Assembly: GCA_007121025.1 (NCBI GenBank)
Contig: SKMO01000086.1
Location: forward strand, 1-38,690
DNA from: Bacillota bacterium
GTDB lineage: Bacteria > Bacillota > TC1 > UBA5767
Direction of reading: 5' to 3'
Length of the DNA stretch: 38,690 nucleotides
Translations under genes and position numbers: made by a program
Notes under the pieces: model-generated
Database searches by the model: none
Seen by the model: the letters and a program-made list of their open reading frames with translations, nothing else
What the model was told of the DNA's origin: nothing
Part shown: piece by piece, positions 1 through 20,981 of the stretch
How the letters are laid out: every line of letters starts with the position of its first letter
How positions within the stretch are numbered: position 1 is the stretch's first letter

Positions 1-728
1 ACACTTTCCGAGCCCGTCTCCAGAAGCAGCTCCTCTGCATAACGCTCAGCGGCGTGCTGCAGTCTGGCATCCAGGGACAGGACCAGAGAGTTCCCCTGGA
101 CCGGTGGAGTGTAATTGTGAACGCTTTCCGGAATCACCCGGGCCAGGGAGTCCACTTCAAGCTGGATTTCCCCGGGAATCCCGGTCAGTTCCTGTTCGTA
201 CGTCACCTCAAGTCCGGCCAGTCCCTGATTGTCCATGCCCGCAAACCCGATGGTCTGGGACGCCAGTCGTCCTTTGGGATAGTAACGCTGGCTTTCCTGA
301 AACATGACGACGCCCGGATAACCCAACGCCTCGATCTCCGGTCCCAGCCGGAAGGGAATCTTTCGTTTCAGCCAGACAAAGTTGCTGTCCGCTGTCAGGC
401 GGTCCAGAACCTGTTCCGGTTCCATGTCCAGAATGTGCCCCAATTTGTTGGCCATCTGCTGTACATCGTATTTTCCCCGTGCCACTTCCGCCGGAAACAC
501 CGCCACGGACTCCCCCATGGTGCTGGCCGCCAGCACTTCACCGTTTCTGTCCAGAATATCCCCCCGCTGGGGTTCAACACGAACATTCTTCAACCGGTTG
601 TTGAGCGCACTCTCCCGGTACTCGGCACCCTGTACGACCTGAAGATCCACCAGTTTGTACACCACGGCAGAAAAAAAGATCATCATGATCGCCAGCAACA
701 CCAGGATTCGCTTTTGGCTGCCACTCAT
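1..728 (-). CDS. Penicillin-binding protein, FtsI/SpoVD type (partial, 3' end outside window)
   Basis: This is the N-terminal 242 codons of a class B penicillin-binding protein, a transpeptidase that cross-links septal or spore-cortex peptidoglycan outside the membrane. The start is the ATG at 728, with AAGGAG nine bases upstream. A single membrane anchor lies at about residues 7-25. It is followed by the PBP dimerisation domain with its hallmark RGDILDRNG at 55-63. The catalytic SxxK region is beyond the window edge, so PBP2B (division) and SpoVD (sporulation) cannot be told apart. It follows ftsL by 16 bases, as is usual in dcw clusters. The frame is open to base 1. Confidence 0.9.
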   Translation of the reverse strand, partial: MSGSQKRILVLLAIMMIFFSAVVYKLVDLQVVQGAEYRESALNNRLKNVRVEPQRGDILDRNGEVLAASTMGESVAVFPAEVARGKYDVQQMANKLGHILDMEPEQVLDRLTADSNFVWLKRKIPFRLGPEIEALGYPGVVMFQESQRYYPKGRLASQTIGFAGMDNQGLAGLEVTYEQELTGIPGEIQLEVDSLARVIPESVHNYTPPVQGNSLVLSLDARLQHAAERYAEELLLETGSES

Positions 729-744
729 CGCATCCGTCTCCTTG

Positions 745-1227
745 CTACAATATCCATCTGTTGAGTATACCACTAAGCGGTCCCTGCGCCAATGACAGTG
801 GCCGCTGATCTGCGGTCAGAATGCCAGCAAAACCATCCTCATCTTCAACCGGATGAGGCATTCTCACTCTCAGGCTGACCTGTACCATCTGGTCCACTGT
901 CGGTCTTTGCATGGCCAGTCCCTGCTGCGCCTGCTGCTCCACTTTTTCCAGCGTGCCCAGGTAGCCGATTTCCAGGGACAGCCGTTCGTTGACCACCTGT
1001 TGCTGTTCAATCTGCGCCTTTGTGTATTCGATTTGCTGGTTGCGGGCACTGACCATGCCCACGCTGGCCAGATAAAAAACACCCATGCAGAAAAACAGAA
1101 TCGCCATGGTGAACAGGTCCAGCTTGAACCCGTTTCGCTTCATCGCAGATTCTCTGTCCCGACGGACAGCCAGTTTTCGTTTGGGTGCTTCGTATTTACC
1201 TTTGGCCTGACGGTGTTTTCTTCTCAT
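745..1227 (-). CDS. ftsL: FtsL-like cell division protein
   Basis: A 160-residue bitopic membrane protein placed between rsmH and the PBP gene, the canonical ftsL position. FtsL joins DivIC/FtsB in the divisome and helps activate septal peptidoglycan synthesis. A basic cytoplasmic tail (residues 1-37) is followed by one membrane helix (about 38-60). A heptad-like coiled coil follows (about 62-105, rich in Q, E and L), then a short extracytoplasmic tail. FtsL sequences are poorly conserved, so the call rests on topology, size and context. Its ATG overlaps the rsmH stop by 4 bases (ATGA), which implies translational coupling. Confidence 0.8.
   Translation of the reverse strand: MRRKHRQAKGKYEAPKRKLAVRRDRESAMKRNGFKLDLFTMAILFFCMGVFYLASVGMVSARNQQIEYTKAQIEQQQVVNERLSLEIGYLGTLEKVEQQAQQGLAMQRPTVDQMVQVSLRVRMPHPVEDEDGFAGILTADQRPLSLAQGPLSGILNRWIL
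764..792 (-). promoter_or_regulatory. Candidate sigma-A promoter for the PBP gene
   Basis: On the minus strand TTGGCG (787-792) and TATACT (764-769) are separated by exactly 17 bases. They lie at the end of ftsL and start about 30-40 bases upstream of the PBP start codon. This would give the PBP an extra promoter inside the dcw operon. The -35 matches the consensus at only 4 of 6 positions. Confidence 0.35.
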
Positions 1228-6768: not shown

Positions 6769-7386
6769 CTACAGGACCCGGACCTCTCCAAAGGATTCCA
6801 GACGCTCCACGGCTTCCGGGACATCCCTGCGCCGGACCGCCGCCTCGATGCGGACGATGGCGGTGTATTGCCGTTCCAAAATCCGGGCATCCATCTGCTG
6901 CAGCAGATACAGAATCCGGTCAGCTTCCGGATAGGCACAGACCACCTCAAGCCGGTCGTGAAGGACTTCCTCCCGGTTGCCCAGTTCTTCCAGAAGCTCC
7001 CGGGCGGTTGTTCCATAGGCATCGATCAGCCCCCGGATGCCCAGTTTTTTCCCCCCATAGTAACGGGTCACCACCACACACACATTGGTCAGCCCAAGAG
7101 AGGCAATGGCCCCCAGAATCGGACGTCCGGCGCTGCCGGATGGTTCTCCGTTGTCATCGGCAAACTGATGTTCTCCACCTGTCCCGAGAACCCAGGCGCA
7201 GCAATTGTGAGTGGCGTCACTGTGGATCTGCCGGACCTGCCGCAGGAACTCCCGGGCCTGGTCTTCCGTCGTCACTTTCCCTGCCGACCCCAAAAAACGG
7301 GACCGTTCAATCGTGCGTTTGTTCGTTCCTTCCCGGGCCAGCGTCAGGTAACTGTCCCGGTTTGGCAACCCGTCTTTTGCGTCCAT
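6769..7386 (-). CDS. YigZ/IMPACT family protein
   Basis: A 205-residue protein with the two-domain architecture of bacterial YigZ: an N-terminal UPF0029/IMPACT domain and a C-terminal DUF1949 ferredoxin-like domain. Signature strings are DDNGEPSGSAGRPIL (about 78-92) and TRYYGGKKLGIRGL (about 107-120). The biochemical role is not established; related eukaryotic IMPACT regulates GCN2. The gene is divergent from the plus-strand ORF at 7500. The Shine-Dalgarno before the ATG at 7386 is weak (GGACAGGG about 10 bases upstream), so the exact start is less sure. Confidence 0.88.
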   Translation of the reverse strand: MDAKDGLPNRDSYLTLAREGTNKRTIERSRFLGSAGKVTTEDQAREFLRQVRQIHSDATHNCCAWVLGTGGEHQFADDNGEPSGSAGRPILGAIASLGLTNVCVVVTRYYGGKKLGIRGLIDAYGTTARELLEELGNREEVLHDRLEVVCAYPEADRILYLLQQMDARILERQYTAIVRIEAAVRRRDVPEAVERLESFGEVRVL

Positions 7387-7432: not shown

Positions 7433-7461
7433 TTGCACATCCCCGGACAGGTCTATATAAT
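7433..7461 (+). promoter_or_regulatory. Sigma-A promoter of the small plus-strand gene
   Basis: TTGCAC (7433-7438) and a perfect TATAAT (7456-7461) are separated by 17 bases, giving a start near 7468. The 5' leader would be about 35 bases. This is one of the best promoters in the window. Confidence 0.8.
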
Positions 7462-7502
7462 ACTAAGTATAACCCGCATCTTAAAGGTAAAGGAGTGTTA
7501 TG

Positions 7503-7874
7503 ATGAAGACTACTTATTATATCAATTTTGTCTGCTCGGAGAACCTGAATTCCGCAGACAACATCGACTACGAGGTCACCGTTGACAGACCGTATCTGCC
7601 CCGGGAAAACATGACCATGGGCGGCATTTTCATGGTTGTGGAAAACAGCGCCTATGACGTGGCCAAGGACGAAGCGAAAGTCTACGCCACCTGCTACTAC
7701 CCACGGAACAAGAATTCGGATCCTGCCGGCGAAGTGGACGTGGCCGGCGCCCAGAAGACCACGTACGACGTGATTGCCCGGCTGTCCGAGCGTTACGGCC
7801 TGAAAGGCACGTACACCTCCAGAAACAAAACCTGCAAAACTGTACGGACCGATCCAAACGACGTGGCACTGTAA
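7503..7874 (+). CDS. Hypothetical protein, unrecognised, 123 aa
   Basis: I do not recognise this protein. It has no signal peptide, membrane helix or nucleotide-binding loop. It contains three well-separated cysteines (in FVCSEN, ATCYYP and KTCKTV). It has an MTMGGIFMVVENSAYDVAKDE segment and a C-terminal helix TTYDVIARLSERYGL. Two ATG codons sit in tandem at 7500 and 7503. AGGAG at 7491-7495 is seven bases from the second, so I prefer 7503. It is the only plus-strand gene accepted in the window and is monocistronic, with its own consensus promoter and a perfect terminator. Base composition resembles that of its neighbours, so nothing points to recent transfer. Confidence 0.75.
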   Translation: MKTTYYINFVCSENLNSADNIDYEVTVDRPYLPRENMTMGGIFMVVENSAYDVAKDEAKVYATCYYPRNKNSDPAGEVDVAGAQKTTYDVIARLSERYGLKGTYTSRNKTCKTVRTDPNDVAL

Positions 7875-7882
7875 ACCGAACC

Positions 7883-7917
7883 AAAAAACTGACTCACTTC
7901 CAGGAGTCAGTTTTTTT
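7883..7917. terminator. Bidirectional terminator between convergent genes
   Basis: The arms AAAAAACTGACTC (7883-7895) and GAGTCAGTTTTTT (7904-7916) are perfectly complementary around an 8-base loop. An A run on the left and a T run on the right make it work on both strands. It ends the plus-strand ORF (stop 7872) and the malic enzyme on the minus strand (stop 7923). Confidence 0.92.
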
Positions 7918-7922
7918 ATGGT

Positions 7923-9098
7923 CTAAATCCGGGCGACCCCGGTTCTGCGGGCCGCTTCAGCCACGTTGCGCCCCACTTCGATGCCCGTGTTTCGATCCAG
8001 TGCTGCCGGGATCACATAATCCGGTCTGAGCTGATCCGGCCGGACCAGCCCGGCAATGGCCTGGGCCGCGGCGATCTTCATGGCCTCGTTGATTTCTGTC
8101 GCCCGCACATCCAGGGCGCCACGGAAAATTCCGGGAAACGCCAGGACATTGTTGACCTGGTTTGGAAAATCACTGCGTCCCGTGCAAACCACATAGGCCC
8201 CGGCCGCAAACGCCTCATCCGGAAGGATCTCCGGATCGGGGTTGGCCATGGCCATCACGATGGGCTTTTCGTTCATTGAGGCCACCATGTCCCCGGTCAC
8301 AGCTCCCTGAACGCTGACCCCGATAAACAGGTCCGACCCGACCATGGCCTCCTTCAGGCCCCCCTTCAGACCCTCTGGATTGGTCACATGGGCAAGCTCG
8401 CGTTTTTCCTGGTTCATCCCAGCCTGGCGCCCCACATAAATGGTTCCCCTGGAATCACACAGAATGATGTGCCGGGCCCCTTCGCCCAGAAGAAGCTTGG
8501 CAATGGCCACACCCGCCGCACCGGCACCATTGATGACGATCCGCACATCCTGCATGTGTTTCCCGGTCACTTTCAATGCGTTGATGACCGCCGCCAGGGT
8601 GACCACGGCCGTTCCATGTTGATCGTCATGAAAGACCGGGATGTCCAGCTCCTCTTTCAGCCGCCGTTCAATTTCAAAGCATCCGGGCGCTGCAATGTCT
8701 TCAATGTTGATCCCCCCGAAACCCGGAGAAATGGCCTTGACAACCCGAACGATTTCGTCCGGGTCTTTGGTATCCAGACAAATGGGAAAGGCATCCACGC
8801 CCCCAAAGGTCTTGAACAAAATGGCCTTGCCTTCCATCACCGGAAGGCTGGCTGCTCCGCCGATGTCTCCCAGGCCGAGTACAGCCGTTCCATCGGACAC
8901 CACCGCCACCATGTTCCCTTTGCTGGTGTAGTCGTACACCGACTCCGGATGGGCATGAATCCGTCGGCAGGGTTCCGCCACGCCCGGCGTGTATGCCATG
9001 GACAGATCCTTTTCAGTCTCCAGAGGCACCTTGCTGGTCACCTCAATTTTTCCTTTGTGCCTGACATGCATTTGCAATGATTCTTCGTTGATGTTCAT
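7923..9098 (-). CDS. NAD(P)-dependent malic enzyme (oxaloacetate-decarboxylating)
   Basis: Converts L-malate to pyruvate and CO2 with reduction of NAD(P), linking the C4-acid pool to pyruvate in the cytoplasm. The 391 residues match short bacterial malic enzymes that lack the phosphotransacetylase tail. Visible motifs are AYTPGV (35-40), SDGTAVLGLGDIG (68-80), the likely catalytic lysine in MEGKAILF (K90) and metal-site acidic residues in INIEDI. HDDQHGTA (157-163) and the Rossmann loop GAGAAG (190-195) are also present. Cofactor preference cannot be read. GGAGG precedes the ATG, but a terminator hairpin lies just upstream of it. With ppdK in the same window, malate could feed gluconeogenesis through pyruvate. 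Confidence 0.95.
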   Translation of the reverse strand: MNINEESLQMHVRHKGKIEVTSKVPLETEKDLSMAYTPGVAEPCRRIHAHPESVYDYTSKGNMVAVVSDGTAVLGLGDIGGAASLPVMEGKAILFKTFGGVDAFPICLDTKDPDEIVRVVKAISPGFGGINIEDIAAPGCFEIERRLKEELDIPVFHDDQHGTAVVTLAAVINALKVTGKHMQDVRIVINGAGAAGVAIAKLLLGEGARHIILCDSRGTIYVGRQAGMNQEKRELAHVTNPEGLKGGLKEAMVGSDLFIGVSVQGAVTGDMVASMNEKPIVMAMANPDPEILPDEAFAAGAYVVCTGRSDFPNQVNNVLAFPGIFRGALDVRATEINEAMKIAAAQAIAGLVRPDQLRPDYVIPAALDRNTGIEVGRNVAEAARRTGVARI

Positions 9099-20677: not shown

Positions 20678-20685
20678 CCGAAATC

Positions 20686-20710
20686 ATTCCCTACTCTTTT
20701 AGTTGGATAT
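20686..20710. promoter_or_regulatory. Candidate IscR operator
   Basis: An imperfect 25-bp palindrome: ATTCCCTACT, a 5-base centre, and AGTTGGATAT. The half sites match at 7 of 10 positions. It lies between the predicted transcription start and the iscR start codon, a position suited to repression. Confidence 0.5.
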
Positions 20711-20718
20711 CTGTGGTT

Positions 20719-20748
20719 AGTCTACCATCTCTCCAATGTCCTTGTCAA
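20719..20748 (-). promoter_or_regulatory. Promoter of the isc operon
   Basis: TTGACA (20743-20748) and TAGACT (20719-20724) are separated by 18 bases on the minus strand. Transcription would start close to 20712, at the edge of the candidate operator. Confidence 0.65.
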
Positions 20749-20777
20749 CAAAAAACGTTGGGATTCAAACAAAAATG

Positions 20778-20844
20778 AAAAAAAAGGGCCCTGCCAGGAC
20801 CTGGGTCGCAGAACCGCCCAGGACCCTGATTGCCACAGGCCCCC
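20778..20844 (-). other. Large structured element followed by a U run
   Basis: On the minus strand GGGCCTG (20837-20843) pairs with CAGGGCCC (20786-20793). Inside, CAGG and CCTGGG pair with CCCAGG and CCTG around a GGTTCTGC-containing loop. Eight Ts follow (20785-20778). It lies downstream of a complete terminator and could be a second, back-up terminator or a small structured RNA. Confidence 0.5.
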
Positions 20845-20845
20845 A

Positions 20846-20879
20846 AAAAAGCTGTGCCGCCCGGACGGGCGGCACAGCA
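20846..20879 (-). terminator. Strong terminator of the dgt-to-LtaS-like operon
   Basis: A perfect 12-bp stem (GCTGTGCCGCCC 20852-20863 against 20868-20879) with a 4-base loop is followed by six Ts on the minus strand (20851-20846). The interval 20880-20981 up to the LtaS-like stop holds no gene that I can support. Confidence 0.93.
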
Positions 20880-20981
20880 ACAATACGGGAAGCGTTTTTT
20901 TCATGACAACCAATCCAAGCAATGGAAGCAGCAGCACATGGTTTCCTGCCATCCCTGTTTTGGGCAGTACCATTTGCCTGT

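Follow-up and report, generated by a model that had tools for sequence, protein, structure and literature searches.

Gene X, a conserved and lineage-restricted small gene of a Bacillota bacterium that is undescribed in the family libraries searched

Lineage-restricted protein families whose function is unknown abound, so that one more of them is in general a modest surprise. The family described here was defined from gene X, which lies in a stretch of 38,690 nucleotides (Bacillota bacterium, assembly GCA_007121025.1, contig SKMO01000086.1), the whole of which was analysed and is called the window. The closest described systems to its product are the Nudix fold, the Pfam family DUF6894 and a phage protein. 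When the predicted model was compared with the PDB by VIA-align, Z was at most 3.9 and the rows (Nudix, AraR, the N-domain of glutamine synthetase, and L25) were all at Z <4, while Foldseek against the PDB returned nothing under 0.001. Nudix structures such as 3f6a and 6scx gave the top Z of 3.5-3.9 with about 75 residues aligned at an rmsd of 3.4 Å, but Z <5 is within the background, the identity is at most 9%, and the Nudix family in Pfam was not matched by any of the seven members of the gene X family at E up to 10. DUF6894 (PF21834) resembles residues 68-95 of the G118 member, which is the strand-loop-helix part, at 13.2 bits, but E is 0.1, the gathering cut-off of 24.1 bits was not reached and the other six members had no match; this resemblance is likely due to chance or analogy. 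Among viral models (BFVD), Foldseek singled out A0A6J5RB98 of an uncultured Caudovirales phage at E 4.5e-5 and probability 1.00, followed by many phage proteins of 60-75 aa at probability 0.9-1.0. A0A6J5RB98 is close in size (115 aa against 109 aa in the model) and the structural alignment is nearly full-length, but the identity is 19%, the rmsd is 4.8 Å and the TM values are 0.45/0.43; the phage protein is itself uncharacterised and no sequence link to it was found.

The earlier note had placed the protein in no recognised family, and this agrees with the searches of Pfam, NCBIfam, PHROGs, PADLOC and PDB sequences, which gave no family for it, with PADLOC returning no anti-phage defence family for any of the seven members at E up to 10. 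Neither profile nor fold searches gave a clear match to any characterised family, and gene X is thus undescribed in the family libraries searched. Weak NCBIfam matches (glyQ, PmtC, carbonic anhydrase, chorismate mutase and others) at E 0.016-0.16, each to one member, and a PBP_GOBP match of the G005 member alone at E 0.053 were taken as chance. The titles and abstract openings of the literature held nothing relevant to the family.

The open reading frame at 7500-7874 on the plus strand starts with two tandem ATGs at 7500 and 7503. Since the Shine-Dalgarno sequence is well spaced from the second ATG and the starts of all six orthologues align with it, ATG 7503 and not ATG 7500 is likely to be the start, which upholds both the length of 123 residues and the good ribosome binding site described earlier. 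The coordinates are collected in Table 1. It had also been claimed that the plus strand of the window has no other gene, and this holds: the minus strand carries the flanking genes and all 4 tRNAs, and the remaining plus-strand ORFs of at least 50 aa that do not lie mostly under minus-strand genes are short, or face a minus-strand frame truncated at the left end (3..773), or overlap gene X. Above the gathering cut-off, Rfam found only tRNAs in the window, and three sub-threshold Rfam matches across the end of gene X and the terminator were taken as chance. Elsewhere in the window, a space of 304 bp between minus-strand genes at 20678-20981 contains no obvious gene.

Table 1. Features of the gene X locus, in window coordinates
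Feature	Position	Strand	Remarks
YigZ/IMPACT family gene (UPF0029), uncharacterised	6769..7386	-	Divergent, upstream of gene X
-35 hexamer TTGCAC	7433..7438	+	TTGCAT with equal spacing in G001, G002 and G003
-10 hexamer TATAAT	7456..7461	+	17-nt spacer; 6 of 7 members have an exact TATAAT upstream
Shine-Dalgarno AAGGAG	7490..7495	+	Read directly; 7 nt before ATG 7503
Gene X coding sequence	7503..7874	+	123 aa, stop codon included; core fold is residues 1-109; from ORF and orthologue alignment
Terminator hairpin	7883..7916		A/T-symmetrical, between convergent genes; from scan and folding
Malic enzyme gene	7923..9098	-	Convergent, downstream of gene X

The promoter that had been read as TTGCAC-17-TATAAT is present, and a TTGNNN-17-TATAAT arrangement is found in the window as well as in G001, G002, G003 and G005. 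When the 120 nt upstream of gene X were shuffled by base, the window promoter was equalled in 9 of 500 shuffles. The promoter of the G083 copy is weaker and scores better at a 16-nt spacing, and that of the G118 copy, with TATACT instead of TATAAT, is weak, 242 of 500 shuffles being equally good. The terminator had been called perfect, and in this only a part of the claim stood: the hairpin is real and lies directly 3' of the stop codon in all seven members (-15 to -26 kcal/mol), but G-C pairs make up 4 of the 13 pairs of the window stem, and a terminator scan of 1.8 kb found 1 such site against 1.6 expected by chance. As the single-sequence statistics of promoter and terminator are modest, it is conservation across the orthologues that places them beyond chance, and for the hairpin this conservation is stronger evidence than the scan. 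Because the hairpin is A/T-symmetrical and sits between convergent genes, it probably serves both gene X and the malic enzyme gene and ends transcription from either side.

Six orthologues were found, which makes seven intact members in seven genomes, all open frames of 108-123 aa, and the identity between pairs is 44-84%. Relative to the window protein the identity is 59-66% in the same family (G001, G002 and G003), 47% in the same order (G005) and 53-54% in another class (G083 and G118). In the closest pair, G001 and G003, dS is 1.23 and dN 0.11, giving a dN/dS of about 0.09, and synonymous sites are at or near saturation in the other pairs; third codon positions vary most in 21 of 21 pairs. 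The gene X family is under purifying selection, and the poor conservation that would have spoken against the gene was not seen. As regards distribution, 5 of the 10 genomes of its own class and 7 of 398 in a phylum sample carry gene X, its own genome included in both counts. A second phylum sample searched at E up to 0.1, with less complete genomes excluded, gave matches in 12 of 398 genomes, of which five were true members, and a further one gave 6 of 397; these samples overlap one another and their counts are not additive. Of the three genomes in the family of G083, which also make up its class, 2 carry the gene, and it is absent from 5 of 5 genomes of another genus, g3, in the window's own order. 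A scan of 84,980 genomes with two exact-pattern peptides, which is blind to the G083 and G118 versions so that absence elsewhere is not implied, gave 2 loci, labelled Peptococcaceae bacterium UBA5767 and Clostridia bacterium CSMAG_109.

The seven remaining matches of the second phylum sample (E 0.009-0.064) were dropped after the ORFs were read, as was an additional weak match within G002. These we take, by eye, to be parts of a 1843-aa repeat protein, a sigma factor, a radical-SAM-like protein and others; among them were also a DUF2087 protein and one frame full of stops. The DUF2087 protein, of 103 aa, is in G160 (L027, minus strand, 1351-1659) and is a weak chance match to the gene X profile. 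The window protein had no match in plasmid records at E 0.01, and the one plasmid match of the G083 member, at E 8, is at chance level.

Each of the seven copies of gene X stands as a single gene with a hairpin after it and runs opposite to its neighbours. In G004, G006 and G007, three of the g3 genomes that lack gene X, the malic enzyme and YigZ genes still adjoin with nothing recognisable between them. The order around the G083 copy is an AddA-like gene, gene X, LysM and YigZ, and a CBS gene lies close by; in G042, which lacks gene X, a different gene stands between the AddA-like gene and YigZ, the AddA-like genes being named by eye in both. Near the G118 copy (L020, 1696-2468 and 8006-8443) are several small proteins that by eye we take to be of the NifX/dinitrogenase iron-molybdenum cofactor type. 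The family distribution and the neighbourhood fit vertical inheritance with loss, or a single old gain. We considered a sporulation gene and rejected it, because gene X does not follow the presence or absence of SpoIVA, which is absent from the five Peptococcia-type members (G000, the genome of the window, G001, G002, G003 and G005) and present in G083 and G118 as well as in G042.

The codon adaptation index of gene X was compared with the ribosomal-protein cluster of each genome, for which a small L1-rpoB set of 8 ORFs was used in G000 as ribosomal protein L2 was not found in that assembly. Only in G002 does the index fall below the reference mean; in the other six genomes it equals or exceeds it. 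Background ORFs ranking above gene X were 2 of 30 in the window, 3 of 56 in G001, 4 of 18 in G002, 0 of 16 in G003, 15 of 63 in G005, 1 of 5 in G083 and 3 of 65 in G118, the signal being weak in G005 and G002. Fisher's combination over the seven genomes, which are related and in which the ranks of short genes are noisy, gave p 0.011. Two of the three ORFs ranking above gene X in G001 presumably are enolase and GAPDH, judging from their sequence starts. The codon usage of gene X thus resembles that of ribosomal-protein genes, and together with the conserved promoter placement it points to a gene that is probably well expressed, as had been proposed, and whose protein may well be abundant.

A first AlphaFold2 run with five sequences gave pLDDT 67 and no useful match, and with seven sequences residues 1-109 were modelled at pLDDT 89.1 and pTM 0.81 in two confident models of five, the remaining three not being confident. 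The predicted fold is a five-strand sheet (strands 2-9, 21-28, 36-39, 42-52 and 57-64), one long helix (80-98) and a last strand (102-106). In the seven-member alignment 26 columns are invariant, and 18 of these are polar, Cys, Gly or Tyr (N8, C11, N16, S17, N20, D22, G41, S49, D52, T63, C64, G76, D79, Q84, G102, T103, Y104 and R107). Three spaced cysteines had been pointed out, and two of them, C11 and C64, are in all seven members, but the third (110/111) is in only 5 of 7. It lies in a C-terminal tail that the two 108-aa members do not have, so that this tail is dispensable for the family. On the assumption of a simple alternation of the five strands, one end of the sheet would hold C11, the N16-D22 loop, C64, G76-D79, the start of the helix and R107. 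C11 and C64 with the conserved polar loop residues suggest a ligand or thiol site, although the invariant residues may be structural only. A metal- or thiol-related role, which had been put forward earlier, remains a guess: two of the cysteines are invariant but the third is not, and none of the fold matches points to a function.

From these data we tentatively propose that the gene X protein is an abundant cytosolic housekeeping protein that binds a ligand or is thiol-active. In this proposal the stand-alone gene would probably be strongly and constitutively expressed and would give a small acidic cytosolic protein of a single domain (the pI of the members is 4.7-5.7), the sheet of which would bear a putative conserved polar and thiol site made up of C11, the loop N16-S17-N20-D22, T63-C64, G76, D79, Q84 and R107, and this site would bind a small ligand or perform thiol chemistry. 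High codon adaptation, small size, the acidic pI and the fact that no enzyme family was matched would suit a purely structural or stress-related small protein, such as a chaperone-like or storage protein, with neither a catalytic nor a ligand site; we consider this rather unlikely, for 18 invariant columns of such composition among 26 are more than a scaffold usually needs.

The viral structure matches raise the possibility of a domesticated phage protein, that is, of a small phage sheet-and-helix fold that was acquired in a single event and retained on the chromosome as a gene. Set against these matches are the high rmsd and low identity of the best of them and a stable chromosomal context; tblastn in 50,697 phage records gave no homologue at E 0.01, none at E 10 for the G083 member and only two chance-level matches for the G118 member, and two pattern scans of IMG/VR found none. 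A phage origin is therefore unlikely. It is quite unlikely, too, that gene X encodes a partner or regulator of the divergent YigZ acting from a common promoter region. The yigZ gene is the immediate divergent neighbour in G000, G001, G002, G003 and G005 and is one gene away in G083, but this adjacency carries little weight because the whole mraZ-rpoD region is co-linear throughout the same-family genomes, and no YigZ gene was seen within the 17 kb read around the G118 copy. The link is weakened further because YigZ occurs without gene X in 6 of 6 relatives tested that lack gene X, and the gene X protein is acidic with no DNA-binding motif recognised. A bolder extension of the thiol-active housekeeping protein, which we regard as very unlikely, is that the gene X family founds a fold not yet characterised. 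Its members would then be abundant ligand or redox proteins with two cysteines, which in Peptococcia-like anaerobes would replace or supplement one of the known thiol systems of housekeeping and would have a distant structural echo in phages.

Gene X is a real, conserved, lineage-restricted small gene of an ordinary kind. The best explanation, which as a whole reading is only a possible one, is a family that occurs in only a few anaerobic Firmicutes lineages and is inherited mostly by vertical descent. What had been an ORF guess is now a defined family of seven members, for which the start site, the conserved transcription unit, evidence from codon usage for strong expression, a fold model and candidate residues are available. 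Should its abundance match what the codons suggest, the protein would be a part of core physiology in poorly studied anaerobes that current family libraries have missed.
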